Part shown: in pieces, positions 41,419-50,301 of the stretch
Layout of the letters: each line of letters opens with the position of its first letter
Numbering within the stretch: the first letter of the stretch is position 1
Source of the DNA: Nostoc sp. FACHB-973
GTDB taxonomy: Bacteria > Cyanobacteriota > Cyanobacteriia > Cyanobacteriales > Nostocaceae
Assembly (NCBI RefSeq): GCF_014698115.1
Contig: NZ_JACJSJ010000008.1
Coordinates: 1 to 64,000 of the forward strand
Direction: 5' to 3'
DNA length: 64,000 nt
Position numbers and translations under genes: made by a program
Notes under the pieces: model-generated
The model's database searches: none
What the model saw: only the letters and a program-made list of their open reading frames with translations
What the model was told of the DNA's origin: nothing

Positions 41419-43116
41419 ATGACCACAATTTCTTCACCTCAACTTTGGCTCTATGACACTACACTACGGGATGGCACTCAGCGCGAGGGGCTATCTGTAT
41501 CGATAGAAGATAAGTTACGCATTGCCAAAAGACTCGATCAACTGGGAATCCCCTTTATTGAAGGCGGTTGGCCTGGTGCTAATCCCAAGGATGTACAATT
41601 TTTCTGGCAACTCCAAGAAGATCCGCTCAAACATTCAGAAGTTGTTGCTTTTTGTTCGACTCGACGCCCCAACACCTGTGCGGCAGAAGAACCGATGCTA
41701 CAAGCGATTTTAGCTGCGGGAACTCGCTGGGTGACGATTTTTGGCAAGTCTTGGGATTTACATGTCACAACCGGACTCAAGACGACATTGGAAGAAAATT
41801 TAGCAATGATTCGTGACACTATTGAGTACCTCCGTTCTCAAGGGCGTCGCGTGATCTACGATGCTGAACATTGGTTTGATGGCTATAAGCACAATCGAGA
41901 TTATGCTTTACAGACATTACAGGCAGCGATCGCATCTGGTGCCGAGTGGCTAGTCCTGTGTGATACCAATGGCGGCACTTTACCCCATGAAGTTAGCCAA
42001 ATTGTCCAAGATGTGGTAAAGGTGACTGGGGACTGGGTATCGGGGACTGGGGACTGGGGACTAGGAAATAGGAAAGAATCTTCCCAGTCCCCAATCCCTA
42101 ATCCCCAATCCCCAATGCCCCAAATTGGAATTCACACTCATAACGATTCGGAAATGGCGGTTGCTAACGCAATAGCCGCCGTTATGGCAGGGGCAAAGAT
42201 GGTACAAGGCACAATTAACGGTTACGGTGAACGTTGTGGGAATGCTAACCTCTGTTCGTTAATTCCCAATTTACAACTTAAACTGGGTTACAGTTGTATC
42301 TCAGGAGACCAGCTAACACAACTTACAGAAGCGAGTCGTTTTGTGAGTGAGGTGGTTAATCTTGCTCCTGATGAACATGCGCCCTTTGTTGGACGTTCGG
42401 CTTTTGCACACAAAGGTGGTATTCATGTATCCGCTGTGGAACGTAATCCCCTGACTTACGAACACATGCAACCGGAACAAGTGGGGAATCGTCGCCGCAT
42501 CGTCATTTCGGAACAGTCGGGACTGAGCAATGTTTTAGCCAAAGCCCGCAGTTTTGGTATTGAATTGGATCAATTAAAGGCAGAAGCGAAGCAAATTCTC
42601 CAGCGCCTCAAAGATTTGGAGAGTGAAGGATTTCAATTTGAAGCCGCAGAAGCCAGTTTTGCACTGTTGATGCATGAAGCTTTGGGAGGACGGCAAAAGT
42701 TTTTTGAAGTCAAGGGTTTTCAAGTCCACTGTGATTTGATTGAGGGAAAAGAAACTAGCAACGCTTTAGCCACAATCAAAGTCGCTGTTGAGGGTAAAAA
42801 TATTCTAGAGGCGGCGGAAGGTAACGGCCCGGTTGCAGCTTTGGATGCAGCTTTACGCAAGGCTTTGGTGAACTTTTATCCCCAAATTGCAACTTTTGAT
42901 TTGACGGATTACAAGGTGCGGATTCTCAACGGACATACGGGCACTGCGGCGAAAACCCGTGTGTTGGTAGAATCGGGCAATGGTTATCAACGCTGGACAA
43001 CGGTAGGAGTTTCTACCAACATTTTGGAAGCTTCCTATCAAGCGGTGGTGGAAGGCTTGGAATATGGTTTGTTGTTGCACTCCCAAGCTGAAGCAGCAGT
43101 GAAAGCTTCTAGTTGA
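41419..43116 (+). CDS. cimA: (R)-citramalate synthase-type enzyme
   Basis: 565 aa. DRE-TIM metallolyase with LYDTTLRDGTQREGLSVS and the citramalate-type phrases IYDAEHWFDGYKHNRDYAL and CDTNGGTLPHEV. HTHNDSEMAVANA carries metal-binding His. A C-terminal regulatory domain follows (about residues 405-560). It condenses pyruvate and acetyl-CoA toward 2-oxobutyrate and isoleucine. Just before the metal site is an in-frame STRR insert (GDWVSGTGDWGLGN to PNPQSPMP; DNA 42023-42119). I start at ATG 41419. Confidence 0.88.
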   Translation: MTTISSPQLWLYDTTLRDGTQREGLSVSIEDKLRIAKRLDQLGIPFIEGGWPGANPKDVQFFWQLQEDPLKHSEVVAFCSTRRPNTCAAEEPMLQAILAAGTRWVTIFGKSWDLHVTTGLKTTLEENLAMIRDTIEYLRSQGRRVIYDAEHWFDGYKHNRDYALQTLQAAIASGAEWLVLCDTNGGTLPHEVSQIVQDVVKVTGDWVSGTGDWGLGNRKESSQSPIPNPQSPMPQIGIHTHNDSEMAVANAIAAVMAGAKMVQGTINGYGERCGNANLCSLIPNLQLKLGYSCISGDQLTQLTEASRFVSEVVNLAPDEHAPFVGRSAFAHKGGIHVSAVERNPLTYEHMQPEQVGNRRRIVISEQSGLSNVLAKARSFGIELDQLKAEAKQILQRLKDLESEGFQFEAAEASFALLMHEALGGRQKFFEVKGFQVHCDLIEGKETSNALATIKVAVEGKNILEAAEGNGPVAALDAALRKALVNFYPQIATFDLTDYKVRILNGHTGTAAKTRVLVESGNGYQRWTTVGVSTNILEASYQAVVEGLEYGLLLHSQAEAAVKASS

Positions 43117-43162
43117 CAAATATGACTTTGTAGTGTAATGACTTTTTACACTATTTAATGAG

Positions 43163-43189
43163 AATGAGAGGCGATCGCCTCTCATTTTT
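43163..43189 (+). terminator. HIP1-centred intrinsic terminator of cimA
   Basis: 24-bp perfect palindrome, AATGAGAGGCGA and complement, whose centre is the HIP1 octamer GCGATCGC, followed by a T tract. It lies 47 bp after the cimA stop. Confidence 0.75.
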
Positions 43190-43254
43190 GTGCAATGCTT
43201 TTGTGCGTAGCTGAAGTTCAATTAACGCACTCGCTCGCCCCTACTGTCTACTTA

Positions 43255-43737
43255 CTAGAGAGCGTTAATTAGGTAGTCGAAATAAGTACCAACTTCGCCA
43301 ACATCTTCTCCAGACAACATCGAGATAGCGATGTTCTTCATAGCACGGACACTTTCAGCAACGGCCTCAATTGGGGTGCCGAGGGATTTGTACATTTGGC
43401 GAACACCAATGACTCCGATTTCTTCAATTGGTGTAGCATCTCCAACGGCAACGCTGTAAGTAATCAAGCGCAGGTAGTAATCCATATCCCGCAGGCAGGT
43501 GGCAGTCATATCTTTGCCGTAGGCATTACCACCCGGAGAAACAAGGGTTGGACGCTTTTGGAAAAGTTCGTTTGCAGCTTGCTTAATAATGCGATCGCGG
43601 CTTAAAGTTAAAGCTTGCACAAGGCGTAGACGGCGCTCACTACTGGTAATAAACATCTTGATCTGGTCAAGTTCTCCAGGGCTGAGATAACGAACCTCGG
43701 CATCTGCATTTAAAATAATTTTCGTAATAACACTCAT
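43255..43737 (-). CDS. apcA2: Allophycocyanin alpha-subunit paralog
   Basis: 160 aa phycobiliprotein. It matches ApcA more than ApcD ([42 protein letters not shown]). The bilin-binding Cys is at residue 81 exactly, so it should bind phycocyanobilin. Helices A-B differ markedly from housekeeping ApcA ([21 protein letters not shown]). There is no apcB next to it. A paralog named apcA2 exists in Nostoc PCC 7120; equivalence is inferred. It starts a minus-strand photoprotection gene set and has a conserved upstream block at 43915. Confidence 0.88.
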
Positions 43738-44075
43738 TAGTTAACTCCTGAAAGATTTAAATTAGGTCTATCTGAAACGGTTAAATTATTTACACCTTGA
43801 ACCTGCGAGAGCAAACTGTGCAAGTTCTCACCCTCAATCACTTTTGTTTCTAAGAGTTGAGTAGTGTGATGCCTCCAGAATGAACAAAGCACAAGGTGAT
43901 AATTTACTATTTCCTTCCCTACAGCATCACAGGGTACTGTTTTATTTGTGGGGTTATTTGATTAACTACGTCATAAAAGTTAAGACAAGCATCTCGAACT
44001 CAAAGCTCAAAATGAAGTTTAGATTAACTTCTTAGCTATCGAGCAGCCTATATTGGTTAAACTGCAACTGCTGAC
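43738..44075. other. Leader of the ApcA paralog
   Basis: 338 bp without a gene. The notable content is the conserved block at 43915-43989. The part between it and the start codon would be the promoter-proximal leader. Confidence 0.6.
43915..43989 (-). promoter_or_regulatory. Conserved upstream block shared with the response regulator gene
   Basis: Read on the minus strand: CTTGTCTTAACTTTTAT, then GTAGTTAATCAAATAACCC, then ACCCTGTGATGCTGTAGGG. A matching block of the same length and order lies before the response regulator gene at 47175-47249. TTGTCT followed at promoter spacing by TTAATC could be -35/-10, and CCCT...AGGG may be a dyad operator. The function is inferred from conservation within this window. 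Confidence 0.6.
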
Positions 44076-44255
44076 CTACAAAATATTCCAGAAGTGAAGC
44101 AAGCCTTGACCAGAAAAAATTTCAATGAGGACGGCGGATATGAAGCCAATCATCGCAAAACGACCGTTCCAGACTTCAGTCTGAGGTGTAAAGCCCCAAA
44201 GCCAAGCATTGCGCTGATTGTTCATTGAAGAGGCGATGTTTGTGTTAGCTGACAT
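44076..44255 (-). CDS. hli: High-light-inducible (CAB/ELIP/HLIP) protein
   Basis: 59 aa. Single-helix HLIP with the chlorophyll-binding motif [13 protein letters not shown] followed by a hydrophobic helix ([15 protein letters not shown]). The N-terminus [10 protein letters not shown] is typical. HLIPs bind chlorophyll and carotenoid, quench excess energy and protect photosystem assembly. It sits between the ApcA paralog and nblA on the same strand. Confidence 0.92.
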
Positions 44256-44326
44256 AGTTCATACTCCAAATTTTGTGACTGTAAGGAATTACTCAGTTGT
44301 GGAAAGTCAGGATTGCTTCGGTGGTT

Positions 44327-44512
44327 TTAGAGAGAGGCAAAATCCAGATCTAATTTCCACTGTTGTTTCAGAATGTCCTGATATATCGTTTCCCGAATCA
44401 TCATCTGCTGATGCTGCAAAATCAGGAATTCTTGAGCTTGTTCGCGGGACATTTGCTGCACCTGATCGGTAAAGCTTCTGAGGCTAAATTCTTGCTCTAA
44501 AGTTAGTTCCAT
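44327..44512 (-). CDS. nblA: NblA phycobilisome degradation adaptor
   Basis: 61 aa, the usual size. LTLEQEFSLRSFTDQVQQMSREQAQEFL and IRETIYQDILKQQW are the family's hallmark. NblA links phycobiliproteins to a Clp protease during nutrient stress and triggers bleaching. Good ribosome binding site (AGGAGG). It lies 71 bp upstream of the hli gene on the minus strand. Confidence 0.93.
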   Translation of the reverse strand: MELTLEQEFSLRSFTDQVQQMSREQAQEFLILQHQQMMIRETIYQDILKQQWKLDLDFASL

Positions 44513-44574
44513 AAATGCCTCCTGTAACTCAATTAGGGTGAAAACTGTGAGTTCGATGTTGCACTAGCTATGTT

Positions 44575-44712
44575 TTAGAGTTCATTTGAACTCTTTGTTA
44601 TGCGTGTTGCAGGTCCATCATGTCTGTTGGGGTCTTTCTTTTGCTTTTTAGTACCATCAGATTTCTTTTTGGCTTTTTTGGCTTCTTTGTTGCCTTTTTT
44701 CTCTTTCGACAT
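44575..44712 (-). CDS. Tiny Lys-rich basic protein
   Basis: 45 aa: MSKEKKGNKEAKKAKKKSDG then a KKQKKDPNRHDGPATRITKSS tail. The ATG at 44712 has a well-placed GGAG. I do not recognise it, but the clean start signal and its place between nblA and a membrane protein gene, on the same strand, support a real gene. The plus-strand frame over it is a hydrophobic shadow. Confidence 0.6.
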   Translation of the reverse strand: MSKEKKGNKEAKKAKKKSDGTKKQKKDPNRHDGPATRITKSSNEL

Positions 44713-44798
44713 AATGATTCTCCAATGGAGGTTACTTTAATGCGATCTTTGATTTCTCAGTCGTTGGCGTTAGTGCCTGATTTCGTATTCACCCTCGT

Positions 44799-45029
44799 TT
44801 AGAAAGGTCTGAACAAGAAAATCCAAAGAATACTTGCAATAGCGAGCAAGCTGAAGTTGAAAAAACGGCCTACTGTGGGGCTAAGTCCAAGTGCCTGATC
44901 TCCTCTACCACCAGTGAAAAATAGTGACCAGGCTTGAGTTGCGTTGATTTTCTCAAAGTGATTGAAACCGAGTCCGAAGACAACGGGACTAAACAGAGAA
45001 GGATTAGTTAAGGCAACATTAGTTCTCAT
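44799..45029 (-). CDS. Small membrane protein in the photoprotection cluster
   Basis: 76 aa from ATG 45029 (MRTNVALTNPSLFSPVVFGLG). The middle (HFEKINATQAWSLFFTGGRGDQALGLSPT) is followed by one C-terminal membrane helix (FNFSLLAIASILWIFLF). Not recognised. The longer frame from 45110 adds a basic, unlikely N-terminus. Its place between OCP and NblA suggests a thylakoid role. Confidence 0.6.
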   Translation of the reverse strand: MRTNVALTNPSLFSPVVFGLGFNHFEKINATQAWSLFFTGGRGDQALGLSPTVGRFFNFSLLAIASILWIFLFRPF

Positions 45030-45473
45030 TGGTTTTATCCTTAATATTTTGGAAAAGTGCTTAGGATATATGGTGAAGTTCAATTTCCTACAAGCCAGTG
45101 AACAGATCAATCACACCTAGTCCGGCTTGCTAGGGCTAAGAGCAAAAAGTTTTTGCTCGTTTTTCTGGATACCGAGTAAAGCTAAACTGAGGCTCATACA
45201 TCACTTACTTTCAAAGATTCGATGGCGTAGTCGTTCAGCCTACCGAATTCTTAAATCACTAAACCGCTTTTTATAAGTTTTACTTTTTGGTTTTGTGATG
45301 TTTTATAAATTAAATCTAACACTTTTGTTACAAAACTGCAATGTTTATTGCCAAATAAAATAAATAGTGATATGTTTCGCTTCCGTGCCAGAGGCTATAC
45401 GCCCGATCATGCATAGTCAGTTGAATGTCTAGGCTTTGCCAAAGCACAAGGTAAACCAGCATTTTGAGGATGA
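45030..45473. other. Intergenic region between OCP and the small membrane protein gene
   Basis: AT-rich region of about 440 bp with no supported gene. A 103-codon minus-strand frame that overlaps the OCP 3' end is likely a shadow. The OCP terminator lies at its right edge. Confidence 0.5.
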
Positions 45474-45505
45474 TTTTCAGCCTGAGCGATCGCTCAGGCT
45501 GAAAA
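45474..45505 (-). terminator. HIP1-centred terminator after OCP
   Basis: 32-bp perfect palindrome, TTTTCAGCCTGAGCGA and complement, again centred on GCGATCGC, ending in TTTT/AAAA on each side. It lies 34 bp downstream of the OCP stop on the minus strand. Confidence 0.75.
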
Positions 45506-45539
45506 CACACAGTTGATCGCTCATCATTCTCAAGCTCTT

Positions 45540-46499
45540 CTACCTTACGAAGCCCAGGTTCAGTAGTTCTTGGGGAGATGCCAGCAAATCGATCGCCACA
45601 AAGAAAATCTTGTCTTGGGGATTGAGTAAGAACCGCCATGCTAGATTTATGCCAACACTTTCACCAAACCAGGGAGTTTGCACTTTACCCGTCACTTTAA
45701 TCCGGGTGAACTCTGCTTCTGCTGGTTCAGACACTCCTGTTTCCGGAATCAGCTTGAGTCCATAGCATTCTTCACGCATATATGTAAGGATCGACTCATG
45801 ACCAATAACCGGTTCTTGGAAAGGAGGTTGCAAGGCACCATCTTCAGCAAATAAAGCCACAGCCGCCTCGAAGTCAAAGGCGTTCATATTCTCCATGTAG
45901 CTTAGGACTGTCAAGTTGTCGATGCCCTTAATGTTGACCTGAGGTCGTGGTGCGATATCTTTAGGTGCAACAACAGGTTCTTTGACTTTTTGAGTGCCAA
46001 CCGTTGGGACATACCCCATGTTAACGACAATATCCTGTAATATGCTGAGTTGCTGGCCTCCTTCAAGTTGACGGATAGCTTGGAGGACATCTGATGCCTG
46101 GGTAGAAAGTTTATAACCTTTTGGAATGGGAGCAACGATTCCTTGTTTCATCCACTCGCCTAACTCATACCAGAAGCCCAACTTGACATTTGTGCCGAAA
46201 GATGAGTATGTACGGCAGATGTCCGTATCAGTATGGTTAACCAGATCGCACATAACTTGCGTTTGCTCTCCGGTAGACATCTGCTTGATTTGAGTTAGGG
46301 TTTTTTCTGCAAAGACCATGTTGACTACCTGCATAGCAGCGGGAGTGATTGTAACTCCCATCTCAGTATAGGCAAACCAAAGTAAAGCCAACTGATCCTC
46401 AGCACTGAGTTGATTGAATGATTCAACGGTAACTGGAATCGCATTAGCAACTTGAGTGTCAGGAAAAATGGAGCGTGCAGATTCGATAGTAAATGACAT
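45540..46499 (-). CDS. ocp: Orange carotenoid protein paralog
   Basis: 319 aa with both OCP halves: helical carotenoid domain (WFAYTEMG, CRTYSSFG, LGFWYELGEWMKQG) and NTF2-like C-terminal domain (TVLSYMENMNAFDF, LQPPFQEPVIG, KVQTPWFGESVGINLAWRFLLNPQ). Counting with Synechocystis OCP, Tyr44, Trp110, Tyr201 and the C-terminal carotenoid-contact Trp are kept. Position 155, an Arg needed for phycobilisome docking in Synechocystis, is Gln (LSILQDIVVN). It may be OCP2/OCPX-like or functionally altered. No FRP gene is nearby. Confidence 0.92.
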   Translation of the reverse strand: MSFTIESARSIFPDTQVANAIPVTVESFNQLSAEDQLALLWFAYTEMGVTITPAAMQVVNMVFAEKTLTQIKQMSTGEQTQVMCDLVNHTDTDICRTYSSFGTNVKLGFWYELGEWMKQGIVAPIPKGYKLSTQASDVLQAIRQLEGGQQLSILQDIVVNMGYVPTVGTQKVKEPVVAPKDIAPRPQVNIKGIDNLTVLSYMENMNAFDFEAAVALFAEDGALQPPFQEPVIGHESILTYMREECYGLKLIPETGVSEPAEAEFTRIKVTGKVQTPWFGESVGINLAWRFLLNPQDKIFFVAIDLLASPQELLNLGFVR

Positions 46500-46560
46500 T
46501 TTTCAAAATCTCCAAAACGAAATTACATTAATTTATTGATATGGTTCAAAAATGGTAATG

Positions 46561-47091
46561 CTAACTTGGAAATACCAAATCTAACTGCTTTTCAAGACTT
46601 AGATGATCGTGTCTAGGAATATGACCCAAAATTCGTTGAGCGATAGTGTATGAGGACTGTTGACAAATTGCTAAACAGGCAAGCACAGCAAGAAACTCAT
46701 TAAAATCCAGGGGTTTTGTGAACAACATGTCAAACCCAACATACAGAGGACTTTGAAGTATCTTTTTATTGGCATAGCCCGTCACAGCAATGATTAGCAC
46801 CGCTTCCCCTCGCTCTCCCGCCTGAGTTCTCACTTGTTGAATCAGGGGATAGCCACCCTCTTTTGACAAGGCAATGTCACTCACGAGGACATCAGGTTGC
46901 CATTGGACAAATATTTCCAAAGCTTGCTGAGTTAAAGATGCTGTTTGCACCTCCACACCATAGGGTTGCAGCAGCAGGGCGATCGAATCGGAGAAATCGC
47001 CATTACGATCTACAACGAGTACTCGCAGCCCTTGGAGGCATTGAAGATTAGTCGGAAATCTATTATTTGGATACATCCCAGCCCCAATCAT
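46561..47091 (-). CDS. Single-domain response regulator
   Basis: 176 aa, receiver domain only: LRVLVVDRNGDF, phospho-acceptor in VLVSDIALSKEGGYPL, switch region IAVTGYAN, Lys in LFTKPLDFNEF. The tail of about 40 aa (YTIAQRILGHIPRHDHLSLEKQL) has no known output domain. It is 60 bp upstream of OCP on the same strand and shares an upstream block with the ApcA paralog. ATG 47076 is a second possible start. Confidence 0.85.
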   Translation of the reverse strand: MIGAGMYPNNRFPTNLQCLQGLRVLVVDRNGDFSDSIALLLQPYGVEVQTASLTQQALEIFVQWQPDVLVSDIALSKEGGYPLIQQVRTQAGERGEAVLIIAVTGYANKKILQSPLYVGFDMLFTKPLDFNEFLAVLACLAICQQSSYTIAQRILGHIPRHDHLSLEKQLDLVFPS

Positions 47092-47174
47092 GATTTCACA
47101 TGCAACAGTGCTAAAAACCTGGTAACTCTTGACAGGAGTTAACCGGGTGTCGGGTGACTGATGTCTTATTGATT

Positions 47175-47249
47175 TCCCTACACCATGACAGGGTGATGTT
47201 TCATTTCTAGGGTTATTTGTTTAACTACAATATAAAAATTAAGAAAAGT
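47175..47249 (-). promoter_or_regulatory. Conserved upstream block before the response regulator
   Basis: Minus-strand reading: CTTTTCTTAATTTTTAT, then GTAGTTAAACAAATAACCC, then CACCCTGTCATGGTGTAGGG. It lines up with 43915-43989 over about 75 bp. It ends 84 bp before the first ATG. Confidence 0.6.
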
Positions 47250-47332
47250 GTCAAATCTGAATTCCTTTTTTCCATCTGGTTTTTTAAACTGGCGTTTTGA
47301 GAAAGAGCTGGCGAAGCTACGTCTGCTGCTAC

Positions 47333-47370
47333 TAGAAAAAAAAGACCTCTGGTGCAAACCAGAAGTCTTT
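47333..47370 (-). terminator. Strong intrinsic terminator, minus strand
   Basis: On the minus strand AAAGACTTCTGGT pairs with ACCAGAGGTCTTT (one mismatch) around TTGC, followed by a run of eight T. It is about 370 bp past the only upstream minus gene (47739-47972). It therefore ends either a long 3' UTR or an unannotated RNA. Confidence 0.7.
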
Positions 47371-47738
47371 CCAATACTGCGTAGGTTTTGGAATTTCTTG
47401 GTTGAGGCAAGCTGTTCAATAGCCGGGGGAGAAATGGAGGCTGGCGCCCTTGTTTTTGCCTCCCCTGCTTCCCCTGCTTCCCCTGCCTCCCCTGCTTATT
47501 CGAGCAGTATTGGAAGTCTTTCCCCTTAAAAACCTTTAAAAGCGTTGTAGAATTCCTTAGCAACATCAAACGCTGATATGGTTAATTTAGTTGCTTGTCA
47601 GCCGTGAATCCAAAATTGCCAGCAAATCCAGACAGATAATCATTCTCATTGAGTAGCCAAGATGCGTAGGCGCAGCCCAACCCAGGCATCGCTAATATTT
47701 CAATATTTTTAGATATTCAATTGCGGTTCGCTTTCATT
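47371..47738. other. Intergenic region with long-range inverted repeat and STRR
   Basis: CTTTCCAATACTGC (47367-47380) can pair with GCAGTATTGGAA at 47504. The loop contains a CCCCTGCTTCCCCTGC tract. No coding gene is supported; frames here are translated repeat. Confidence 0.5.
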
Positions 47739-47972
47739 CTAAGAGAACTTTTCCCAAGATTGGGCAACTAATTGGCTCAACCAGCGACGTTGTTGCTGAT
47801 CCAACAATGGATCTTCCGCTAGCAACTGAGCGGTTAATTCTTCCAAAGATTGACCCTGAGCGCGGACAATTTTAATAACTCCAGCGATCGCACTGGCAAC
47901 TAGTTCTTCATCAATCGGCTGTTGTCGGAGAGCTACAATTTCCTGGGGGCTGTCTGGAATGGGATAATTCAT
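47739..47972 (-). CDS. Small hypothetical protein
   Basis: 77 aa: MNYPIPDSPQEIVALRQQPI then a helical body (VASAIAGVIKIVRAQGQSLEELTAQLLAEDPLLDQQQRRWLSQLVAQ). Acidic and soluble. It looks like a conserved cyanobacterial small protein, but I cannot name it. It is divergent from the flavoprotein gene at 48133. Confidence 0.7.
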   Translation of the reverse strand: MNYPIPDSPQEIVALRQQPIDEELVASAIAGVIKIVRAQGQSLEELTAQLLAEDPLLDQQQRRWLSQLVAQSWEKFS

Positions 47973-48132
47973 GGCGTGGGTTTACAGTTTTACAAAATGA
48001 ACAATAAATTTGACAAAATCTTAAAATTTCTTCACTGAATCTTTACGTAACTAATAGGGCGGAGTTTACCTTATTTTGCGCCTTGATAAAATCTGTCTTT
48101 GTGAATAGATTCATGGGAGATGTCAGGAAAAG

Positions 48133-50301
48133 ATGAAAGAAATCCTTTATTTAGAAGTTCCAACTGCGGATATCGCTGCTGTGCGTAACTGGTTGCAAAC
48201 AGATTTTCAACCGGCATATGGGGAAAAAGTGCTAACCCCGGAAGGCTTCCGTCTCAAAATCATCACCGCTACTACAACCGCTGGCGCTGCAATTTCCGAA
48301 AACTTGCCTGGAGAACTTTCTGTATTTATTTGGTCAGTGCAACGAACTACCTATCTAAAAGTGTTTCGTTGGGCAGAACAACCCTTTCCCAAAGAGAAAG
48401 AAATTCTGCAACACCTAATCAAAGAAATCAGAAGCCGTTTTCCGCATCATTATCCGGAACCGCCAGCCATCGATTTATCGGAGCAATCGATTTTTGCAGC
48501 CCTAGCCCCTCACTACCCCCTCACCGTCAAGTATTTTCAGAAAATGCCCAACGGAGAATATGACCTCAAACGCGCCTACTGGTGGGAACAGCGATGGCGC
48601 CAAGGGGTACGGAATCCGCAGCAGCCCCGGCAGGTGGTGTTTTCGAGTCAAGGTGACTGGGGAAGAGGTAGGGGAGCAGGGGGAGCAGGGGAAGCAGGGG
48701 GAGATAAGAAAATAACATCTCCCTCATCTCCTTCATCCCCCTCATCTCCCTCATCTCCCATTTACGACATCATCTACATCGGCGGCGCACTAGGCGTCAT
48801 CCATGCGGCAGTGATGGCAAAACTTGGATATAAAGTCTTGCTGCTGGAACGAATGCCCTTTGGGCGGATGAACCGGGAATGGAATATTTCCCGCGATGAG
48901 ATTCAAAGCTTACTTAACCTGGGTTTAATCACCCCCGCAGAGTTAGAAACCATCATTGCCAGAGAATACAAAGATGGATTCAATAAGTTTTTTGATGCTA
49001 ATAATCCAAGTAAACTGCGATCGCCTGTATTGCACACACCCACAGTGCTAAATTTAGGCTTAGATTCCGAAAAGTTGCTGCAACTATGTGGGCAAAAGTT
49101 GCAAGCGGCAGGCGGAGAAATTTGGGATGAAACAGAGTTTATCCGTGCAGATATAAATGAATCACAAGTTGCGATAAAAGTCAAGCATTTACCCAGTGAA
49201 ATTGAAAAACAAGTCACTGGGAGACTACTAGTAGATGCGATGGGAACAGCCTCCCCCATTGCTTGGCAATTAAATGGTGGTCGTGCCTTTGACAGCGTGT
49301 GTCCGACGGTAGGAGCGGCAATTGAGAGCGGATTTGAACCGGGGGTATGGGATTCTCAATTGGGAGACGTTCTTTACAGTCACGGGGATATTTCGCGGGG
49401 AAGACAGTTGATTTGGGAATTATTTCCCGCAGCAGGTGAAGAACTGACGATTTATTTATTTCATTACCATGAAGTCAATGCTGAAAATCCTGGTTCCTTG
49501 CTGGAGATGTACGAGGACTTTTTCACAATATTGCCAGAGTATCGCAGATGCGATATGGACAAATTGGTGTGGAAAAAGCCGACATTTGGCTATATACCGG
49601 GGCATTTTAGTGTCGGGAGTCGCGATCGCACAGTTGCCTTCGATCGCTTGATTGCCATCGGTGATGCCGCATCACTCCAATCTCCCCTGATTTTCACAGG
49701 TTTTGGTTCCTTGGTTCGTAACTTAGAGCGCTTAACAAAGCTATTGGATACCGCCCTCAAACATGACTTATTGAGTTTCCAACACTTAAACCAAATTCGC
49801 GCCTACCAAAGTAACGTTTCAGTGACTTGGCTATTTTCCAAAGGCATGATGGTACCCACAGGCAAATTTTTACCACCCCAGCGGGTTAATTCGATGCTCA
49901 ACACCTTTTTTGGGCTGTTAGCAGACGAACCTCCAGAGGTGGCAGATAATTTCATCAAAGACAGATGTGATTGGTTAACCTTTAACCGCTTAGCACTCAA
50001 AGCAGCAAAGAAAAATCCAGCCTTGCTTTTATGGATTTGGCAACTTGCTGGGCCTAAGGATTTAGTGCGATGGCTTGGCAGTTATTTTAGCTTTTCTCGC
50101 CATGCCCTGATTAGCGCTTTACTGAGTCCGTGGTTCCCACAGTTTTTGAGCCGGGTAGGTTCTTGGCTAGAACCCCGAAATCCGGCATTATGGTTGCGGC
50201 TGCTAGCGATTAATTACGCGATCGCCACAGGCAAACCGCGATCGGCTACTCAGGTAGCAAAAACTAGCCCAAAAGCCGTAATTCAGAAATTTAGTCATTA
50301 G
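48133..50301 (+). CDS. CruA/CruP-type lycopene cyclase-like flavoprotein
   Basis: 722 aa. An N-terminal region of about 170 aa precedes the FAD domain (YDIIYIGGALGVIHAAVMAKLGYKVLLLER) and the family phrase FGRMNREWNISRDEI. Later come DAMGTASPIAWQL and FDRLIAIGDAASLQSPLIFTGFGS. CruA/CruP flavoproteins act on or near carotenoid cyclisation; CruP is linked to oxidative stress in plants. I cannot decide between CruA and CruP by eye. In-frame STRR insert between the two regions (GRGRGAGGAGEAGG then [17 protein letters not shown] 48651-48760). Confidence 0.8.
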   Translation: MKEILYLEVPTADIAAVRNWLQTDFQPAYGEKVLTPEGFRLKIITATTTAGAAISENLPGELSVFIWSVQRTTYLKVFRWAEQPFPKEKEILQHLIKEIRSRFPHHYPEPPAIDLSEQSIFAALAPHYPLTVKYFQKMPNGEYDLKRAYWWEQRWRQGVRNPQQPRQVVFSSQGDWGRGRGAGGAGEAGGDKKITSPSSPSSPSSPSSPIYDIIYIGGALGVIHAAVMAKLGYKVLLLERMPFGRMNREWNISRDEIQSLLNLGLITPAELETIIAREYKDGFNKFFDANNPSKLRSPVLHTPTVLNLGLDSEKLLQLCGQKLQAAGGEIWDETEFIRADINESQVAIKVKHLPSEIEKQVTGRLLVDAMGTASPIAWQLNGGRAFDSVCPTVGAAIESGFEPGVWDSQLGDVLYSHGDISRGRQLIWELFPAAGEELTIYLFHYHEVNAENPGSLLEMYEDFFTILPEYRRCDMDKLVWKKPTFGYIPGHFSVGSRDRTVAFDRLIAIGDAASLQSPLIFTGFGSLVRNLERLTKLLDTALKHDLLSFQHLNQIRAYQSNVSVTWLFSKGMMVPTGKFLPPQRVNSMLNTFFGLLADEPPEVADNFIKDRCDWLTFNRLALKAAKKNPALLLWIWQLAGPKDLVRWLGSYFSFSRHALISALLSPWFPQFLSRVGSWLEPRNPALWLRLLAINYAIATGKPRSATQVAKTSPKAVIQKFSH

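Follow-up and report, generated by a model that had tools for sequence, protein, structure and literature searches.

A shared upstream element at both ends of a Nostoc photoprotection gene set suggests an activator-dependent promoter of a cyanobacterial stress regulon

The window, the 64-kb stretch of DNA analyzed here, contains a minus-strand set of photoprotection genes with two closely similar upstream blocks, termed copy 1 and copy 2. The genes and blocks are the following:

43255..43737, minus strand: ApcA paralog, 160 aa (Pfam Phycobilisome, 7e-59), putative target of copy 1
43908..43989, minus strand: element copy 1, 82 nt, upstream of the ApcA-like gene (leave-out profile E 1e-12)
44076..44255, minus strand: ORF of 59 aa, upstream of copy 1, putatively high-light-inducible-protein-like judging by a 10-residue stretch
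44575..44712, minus strand: small lysine-rich ORF, from the ORF list
45540..46499, minus strand: orange carotenoid protein (OCP; Pfam Carot_N, 3e-64, and NTF2)
46561..47091, minus strand: stand-alone response regulator, 176 aa (Pfam Response_reg), putative target of copy 2
47167..47248, minus strand: element copy 2, 82 nt, upstream of the response-regulator gene (leave-out profile E 4.3e-12)

The ApcA paralog scores 300 bits against NCBIfam ApcA (cut-off 270), and the response regulator comprises a receiver domain only, with Response_reg spanning residues 24–137. As the first-pass annotation had stated, the genes behind the two blocks are unrelated (Phycobilisome/ApcA versus Response_reg families) and stand at opposite ends of the set, with the OCP gene and small ORFs in between. 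The OCP gene starts 61 nt past the response-regulator gene and is probably transcribed by read-through from copy 2.

Aligned without gaps, the two copies agree at 66 of 82 positions (80%), far above the best ungapped match of 42/82 (mean 33.9) obtained when the 400 nt surrounding copy 2 were shuffled 1000 times in a dinucleotide-preserving manner, bearing out the initial observation that the blocks align along their length. Of the limits initially given, 43915–43989 lies within this alignment and stands, whereas 47175–47249 extends one base beyond it. Outside the block, identity is at background with 0–7 matches per 20 nt, excepting bins that overlap the block. Using one copy as blastn query against the window returned the other at E 2.7e-17, and a leave-out profile made from 43 of 57 copies, the 14 dropped being the window copies and their close subtype, recovered both over the 64 kb, with the next-best match reaching only E 0.38.

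Searching the own genome (9.5 Mb), blastn missed copy 2 in one run and copy 1 in the next, and later searches were therefore profile-based. Profile R2, built with both copies included, found copy 1 at E 6.1e-15 and copy 2 at E 3.0e-17. The genome holds four full sites, each before an ApcA-like or a response-regulator gene; the two beyond the window stand in tandem before another response regulator. With only four full sites, the block is not a repeat scattered over many random positions, an outcome that had been named as speaking against a shared promoter. Across the Cyanobacteriales, the element was present in 74 of 388 genomes at E ≤ 1e-4. It precedes relatives of the response regulator (55–77% identical) in 7 other genomes, and in a different family three genomes have it before an ApcA paralog. 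The fetched loci, amounting to 907,556 bases, yielded 168 profile matches at E ≤ 1 that merged to 154 sites, many of them non-independent because they stem from related genomes; the reversed sequences of the same bases gave zero matches at this threshold. Microseira wollei, which has a relative of the photoprotection set, showed no match to profile R1 at E ≤ 0.01. Phage records gave only four matches, all at E 0.9, one strict pattern had no exact match in viral contigs, and our literature search found no description of the element. Several sites are located on plasmids and in gene clusters.

Consensus sequences for two boxes were taken from the copy alignments, resulting in a layout in which 19, 28 or 38 nt separate a left box TTTTRTRTCGTA from a right box AAATNAAACA, followed after 9 nt by a -10 hexamer. 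In the window these parts are:

43967..43978, minus strand: left box of copy 1, TTTTATGACGTA, fitting the consensus
43938..43947, minus strand: right box of copy 1, AAATAAAACA, 19 nt past the left box
43923..43928, minus strand: GATGCT, predicted as the -10 hexamer of copy 1, with TGT before it, 9 nt past the right box
47226..47237, minus strand: left box of copy 2, TTTTATATTGTA, fitting the consensus
47197..47206, minus strand: right box of copy 2, AAATGAAACA, fitting the consensus
47182..47187, minus strand: CATGGT, predicted as the -10 hexamer of copy 2, with TGT before it, from the -10 analysis

Transcription starts would be expected near 43916 and 47175 for copies 1 and 2, respectively. 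The gap could be measured in 145 of the 154 sites and was exactly 19, 28 or 38 nt in 119 of them, the 26 other values including variant sites and wrong box pairings. The hexamer carries A2 and T6 jointly in 120 of 130 classed sites, the remaining 24 of the 154 falling outside all three gap classes under the limit applied. Divided by gap class, the counts are 93/103 (19 nt), 13/13 (28 nt) and 14/14 (38 nt, many of these sites being paralogs within related genomes), compared with 18/103, 5/13 and 1/14 for the best alternative offset. The distance from the right box to the -10 hexamer is 9 nt in each class. There is no clear -35 box: the mean match to TTGACA was 2.75, 3.00 and 2.57 of 6 for the gap classes 19, 28 and 38, close to the shuffled values of 2.63, 2.58 and 2.56, and the promoter should thus be weak unaided. 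In the averaged profile, a direct-repeat signal rises weakly above shuffles (p 0.03–0.09; offsets 17 and 21), whereas inverted repeats do not.

Alternatively, the blocks could be a conserved RNA element or 5' leader transcribed from a different promoter further upstream. Such a reading would be suggested by a TTGACA-16-TATTGT match that overlaps the left end of copy 2, would place the block in the leader and is counter-evidence to a promoter, as well as by a short CCCUGU/GUAGGG hairpin, which both window copies could form, judging by eye. However, TTGACA is absent from the ApcA copy and most listed copies, folding z-scores of six copies (-0.19 to 0.58) were no better than shuffles, no consensus base pairs were predicted across 57 copies, and Rfam returned no family at gathering score for 43000–48500. 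A structured RNA element was rejected on folding, covariation and Rfam, and we consider the leader reading improbable.

The sites are strongly biased in placement. The next ORF is co-directional at 133 of 154 sites, compared with 2581 of 4882 random intergenic points, leaving 21 sites where it is not, and only 12 of 154 sites lie inside an ORF, versus 14,755 of 20,000 random points. This orientation and intergenic bias, together with the spacing statistics, is strong evidence against a dispersed mobile repeat that landed upstream of genes by chance. Shared flanks of the L044:12308 and L041 copies, as if co-duplicated, and the plasmid and gene-cluster locations would suit such a repeat, whereas the four full sites in 9.5 Mb, the lack of common flanks of the window copies and the absence of inverted repeats of at least 12 nt in 600 nt around either of them do not, rendering this the remotest of the explanations considered.

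The first ORFs behind the sites point to stress functions, although many are small or without assigned function. A Pfam tally of 129 of the 139 distinct first ORFs, excluding ten doubtful or near-duplicate ones, comprised 29 receiver domains, 10 CsbD, 5 E1-E2 ATPases, 4 phycobilisome, 3 ferritin-like and 3 YflT proteins; overall, the downstream ORFs encode receiver proteins, CsbD, ferritin-like proteins, cation ATPases, ApcA paralogs and DnaJ. Twenty-eight of the 29 receiver proteins are 132–217 aa long, the exception being a 260-aa NblR relative in L112 that is not the true first gene. On two Pseudanabaena plasmids the site is followed by a gene annotated as encoding a CsbD family protein. 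In L112, L114 and L124, a small lysine-rich ORF that by eye resembles that of the window starts 126 nt past the site. We rejected nblR as the target in L124, where this small ORF comes first and the start of nblR lies about 740 nt downstream.

We compared the element with known promoter systems. In E. coli, the PhoB array lies about 10 nt from the -10 region; the TTAA repeats of the pho box recur at an 11-nt step, the HLR1 consensus is (G/T)TTACAWW-NN-(G/T)TTACAWW, and the NtcA box reads GTA-N8-TAC. Class II pho box promoters of PhoB/SphR resemble the element in that a tandem direct-repeat array replaces the -35 box and ends about 10 nt from the -10 region, but the element has gap steps of 9 and 19 nt instead of a TTAA triple at 11 nt. 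For Synechocystis, PMC11126600 describes a pho box of three tandem (TTAA) repeats; this triple had 0/57 full matches (mean 7.25 of 12 versus 7.60 shuffled), and its best match in the two window copies was 7 of 12, below the shuffled mean. The RpaB/HLR1 high-light promoters likewise concern light-protection genes with a site near the core promoter (PMC6331805), whereas the HLR1 consensus occurs in the element only at shuffle level (0/57 full matches; mean 11.16 of 16 versus 11.34). SigJ J-Box promoters of Nostoc punctiforme form a class with a conserved -10 region and a weak -35 (PMC6495340), but in our element the conserved part is a 40–60 nt upstream array, and GGGaAtacT had 0/57 exact matches. 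The NtcA box was found in 0/57 copies; altogether HLR1, NtcA, pho, L-box, J-Box and FNR boxes had zero full matches in 57 copies and were rejected. The general stress regulons of sigma-B and sigma-S resemble the family in the CsbD, ferritin-like, YflT, BON and YeaQ-type genes at or near sites and differ in relying on an alternative sigma -10/-35 pair, where the element has an upstream activator-type array. Genes for CsbD, AvaK-like, BON and OCP-family proteins rise, as does SigB2, in a strain of N. punctiforme that overproduces alkanes (PMC7660261).

RpaB also illustrates how the element might act as an operator for a stress-released repressor that covers the right box to the -10 region, as at HLR1: within core promoters RpaB represses light-induced genes (PMC6331805), and a repressor bound to the right box would obstruct polymerase, because this box occupies the stretch from the -35 to the -10 position. 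Against this, the -35 match is near shuffle level, and the left box lies upstream at added steps of 9 and 19 nt, which suits an activator array. We regard repression as unlikely, albeit the most plausible of the alternatives.

The neighboring response regulator, named at first among the regulators to try in a gel shift, is probably not the protein that binds the element; having a receiver domain only, it is more likely a target than a binder. Generic single-sequence domain seeds, a weak probe, revealed no DNA-binding gene recurrent in the fetched loci beyond near-identical ones. An AraC-type gene of the G409 island was rejected, with no match in the site-bearing G160, G301, G284, G253 and G130; beyond G409, its closest relatives (64%) occur in G005, G008 and G411, where no site was found. 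In N. flagelliforme, OrrA binds the promoters of mysA and susB (PMC13131328), and N. flagelliforme FACHB-838 showed no element site at E ≤ 0.01. One sucrose synthase gene stands behind a site in L235.

Based on the sequence data, the block is best read as a promoter that depends on an activator and belongs to a stress regulon of cyanobacteria, which would provide the photoprotection set with two start points under one putative activator; we assign this reading a probability of about 0.8. The family, its promoter-like anatomy, the mostly intergenic placement, the co-directional ORFs and the recurring target links support the original proposal that the two ends of the set share a promoter and operator. 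In its sequence layout, an array at a fixed distance from the -10 hexamer with no clear -35 box, the element agrees with a class II activator-dependent promoter. The putative activator would bind the tandem array, consisting of the left box, AATCAA-n-TCATTCA-type repeats and the right box. Positioned on the right box, 9 nt before the -10 hexamer, it would recruit RNA polymerase without a clear -35, in a mode likened to PhoB-type class II activators. Two working start points, one for the response regulator and OCP and one for the ApcA paralog, would then respond together. Family, geometry, orientation, downstream gene kinds and the recurrence of both target links can be read from the DNA itself; we infer that the element serves activation and not repression, where transcription starts, that both units are co-induced and that one activator is responsible.

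To our knowledge, it is not settled whether the general stress genes of cyanobacteria share a regulator. The position of the element before light-protection and many stress genes points to a putative master regulator of stress genes, and the regulon appears far wider than the photoprotection set, with the same promoter probably driving scattered stress genes in many cyanobacteria. More tentatively, and with somewhat less than even confidence, we envisage a widespread but patchy general stress regulon, partly on plasmids and gene islands, in which one putative activator reads a modular array (gap steps 9 and 19 nt) before a -35-less promoter and the commonest target class, the stand-alone receiver protein, may feed back on the phosphorelay controlling that activator. 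One recognizable promoter element is common to OCP-linked photoprotection, CsbD, ferritin-like, chaperone and ion-pump genes, and it could serve as a short DNA bait for its binding protein and as the source of a target list. The prediction is that in element-bearing organisms light protection by OCP and the ApcA paralog would be wired into the general stress response.

The two upstream blocks paired by the first-pass annotation proved to be genuine copies of one element. Their ungapped alignment spans 82 nt with 66 identities, whereas 1000 shuffles of the surroundings of one copy gave at most 42 matches to the other, and their upstream regions showed no resemblance outside the block. Copy 1 precedes the gene of the ApcA paralog and copy 2 that of the receiver-only response regulator, with the orange carotenoid protein (OCP) gene and small ORFs located between these two genes.

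43908–43989, minus strand: element copy 1, ungapped alignment to copy 2
47167–47248, minus strand: element copy 2, ungapped alignment to copy 1
43928–43923, minus strand: predicted −10 box of copy 1, GATGCT, after TGT; predicted start near 43916
47187–47182, minus strand: predicted −10 box of copy 2, CATGGT, after TGT; predicted start near 47175
Left box, from the alignment of copies: TTTTRTRTCGTA
Right box, from the alignment of copies: AAATNAAACA

A control profile from 43 of 57 collected copies, excluding the window copies and the OCP-linked subtype, recovered the two window copies at E 1e-12 and 4.3e-12, the next match in the window being at 0.38. Both carry the AAATAACCC variant of the middle part, common to 11 copies, and in a tree of 113 copies both fall inside a clade of 13 (support 0.75), which overlaps the AAATAACCC set without identical membership. 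Just 3′ of the OCP gene lies a perfect 16-bp inverted repeat (45474–45505, arms TTTTCAGCCTGAGCGA/TCGCTCAGGCTGAAAA, ungapped), which may serve as a terminator separating the two units.

Using relatives of the response regulator as a starting point, we found the block in the equivalent position in Scytonema sp. NIES-4073, an uncultured Scytonema, an uncultured cyanobacterium and one genome of the same genus, and some genomes with such relatives held further copies elsewhere. Two sequence-only profile models were then built, R1 from 11 and R2 from 57 copies. Within the order, R1 matched in 111 of 388 genomes (E ≤ 0.01), and R2, run with stricter filters given the size of the search, yielded sites in 74 of the 388 genomes and 33 of 149 genera (E ≤ 1e-4). 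The search of genome and relatives that the earlier reading had called for uncovered a large family; within the genome that holds the window, R2 detected four full sites and a single left half (E ≤ 1e-4). This left half stands alone at G000:C187:67415–67449 (E 1.9e-6, model positions 3–37). Two of the four full sites, already found by R1, stand in tandem about 250 nt apart at G000:C90:92178–92246 and 92428–92489 (locus L130), preceding another response regulator of receiver-only size. Among 13 genomes chosen for having sites, numbers at E ≤ 0.01 reached 14 (G044), 11 (G160), 10 (G287) and 9 (G012). Six sites lie on one 121-kb contig (G409:C48, L169–L172), which also carries an alternate F1F0 ATPase operon, an MMPL exporter, an OCP gene and, judged by eye, an HdeD-like ORF.

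The distribution is patchy: R2 found no match in five of six Nostoc genomes, N. flagelliforme FACHB-838 being included in the six, and a partial one at E 0.007 in the other, and R1 gave no match in Microseira wollei at E ≤ 0.01. At L103:3984–4032, L106:2119–2200 and L109:5734–5815 only the right half is kept, joined to another common left half (TCGCTTGATTT...AAAAGGTGAG); the L109 variant is followed by a transposase-like ORF, judged by eye. About 45 nt of upstream flank is common to the response-regulator copy and to copies L044:12308–12388 and L041:1499–1551, as though an entire promoter had been copied to a position before other genes.

Both gene links of the window recur. The element precedes the response regulator in seven other genomes, with proteins 55–77% identical (L044; L045/L174/L175; L047/L170; L010/L123; L131; L134; L140), the frame being split in two in L047. 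An ApcA paralog likewise follows the element in three genomes from a different family (L107, L285, L286; 69–70% identity). Neither link is therefore a chance of the window genome.

In an alignment of 63 copies, well-conserved bases extend across 60 nt. In a hexamer 9 nt 3′ of the right box, position 2 is A and position 6 is T, as is characteristic of −10 boxes. Both bases were present in 93/103, 13/13 and 14/14 sites with gaps of 19, 28 and 38 nt between the boxes, and at other offsets from 3 to 15 in at most 18/103, 5/13 and 1/14. At −35, the mean match to TTGACA was 2.75, 3.00 and 2.57 of 6 for the same gaps, versus 2.63, 2.58 and 2.56 in shuffles. The gap itself is stepped: among 145 measured sites, 95 had 19 nt, 10 had 28, 14 had 38 (many of these being paralogs in related genomes) and 26 another value, and longer-gap sites contain an extra AATCAA-n-TCATTCA-type unit. 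With steps of 9 and 19 nt the left box stays on almost the same helix face and the right box and −10 box remain locked, an arrangement fitting the need of an activator stacking along direct repeats. In the averaged profile alone these repeats were only weakly visible.

When the full profile was run on the fetched loci (907,556 bases), it gave 168 matches at E ≤ 1, merging into 154 sites, a figure that is not a genome-wide density since the loci were selected for holding sites; the same loci reversed gave no match at E ≤ 1. By mechanically called ORFs, the next ORF was co-directional for 133/154 sites versus 2581/4882 random intergenic points, and 12/154 sites lay inside an ORF versus 14,755/20,000 random points. 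For the 99 co-directional cases in a set of 114 sites compiled earlier, the expected start lay a median of 97 nt from the ORF.

Receivers of stand-alone size were the commonest class among first ORFs: Pfam assigned 29 receiver domains among 129, 28 in proteins of 132–217 aa with little room for other domains and one in an NblR relative. The remainder included 10 CsbD, 5 E1-E2 ATPases, 4 phycobilisome proteins, 3 ferritin-like, 3 YflT, 2 DnaJ and many families occurring once or twice, such as sucrose synthase and MMPL transporter. Also encoded 3′ of a site are an alternate F1F0 ATPase beta subunit and an FtsH, the latter in L177. Taken together, the downstream genes look like a general stress regulon. 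A small lysine-rich ORF of the photoprotection set (MSKEKKGNKE..., window 44575–44712) has counterparts in L112, L114 and L124 (three genomes, all of one other genus), starting 126 nt after the site; in L124, nblR lies further downstream.

Two consensus forms searched against 72,556 plasmids matched 10 and 7 records, from the cyanobacteria Nostoc, Synechococcus PCC 7502, Pseudanabaena, Chroococcidiopsis and Kovacikia, apart from short Paracoccus and Weissella matches (E 0.4 and 0.1). No annotated gene lay beneath the listed cyanobacterial matches, their gene tables being incomplete and the Nostoc sp. UHCC 0926 and Kovacikia records lacking usable annotation. After the site, the annotated gene encodes a CsbD family protein on two Pseudanabaena plasmids and a hypothetical protein on two Nostoc plasmids. 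On the Synechococcus plasmid, BON, hemerythrin and YeaQ-type genes precede the site and an FAD-dependent oxidoreductase, rubredoxin and Dps follow; on that of Chroococcidiopsis, a radical SAM protein, desaturase, NblA and chlorophyll a/b-binding protein follow. A NACHT NTPase gene recurs beside plasmid sites (L293, L296, L298, L299), and on three annotated Nostoc plasmids (UHCC 0870, C057 and C052) the site directly follows it.

The element matched none of the HLR1, NtcA, pho box, J-Box, L-box and FNR consensus forms. Nor was a description of it found by literature searches for this gene cluster, for stress regulators of cyanobacteria or for motif strings, in a corpus with most subscription papers outside its coverage; papers containing a motif string concerned, by title, unrelated organisms. 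OrrA controls sucrose and sunscreen genes (PMC13131328, PMC12157317). The N. flagelliforme genome that was searched lacks any recognisable site, which tentatively makes OrrA an unlikely partner, yet one sucrose synthase gene elsewhere follows a site. Genes for CsbD, AvaK-like, BON and OCP-family proteins, together with SigB2, are raised in an N. punctiforme strain that overproduces alkanes (PMC7660261). The neighbouring response regulator was rejected as the DNA-binding protein; having no DNA-binding part, it is more likely a target and perhaps also a feedback element.

From the observed sequence family, geometry, placement and downstream genes, with activation, start sites and co-induction inferred, the element is most likely an activator-dependent promoter without a −35 box. 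The activator would bind the array and recruit RNA polymerase, so that stress would raise the ApcA paralog jointly with the response regulator and OCP. The earlier proposal of a common promoter plus operator holds in outline, its two start points and single regulator staying predictions. Both window blocks belong to a family of predicted stress promoters in cyanobacteria, larger than the first-pass annotation could see.
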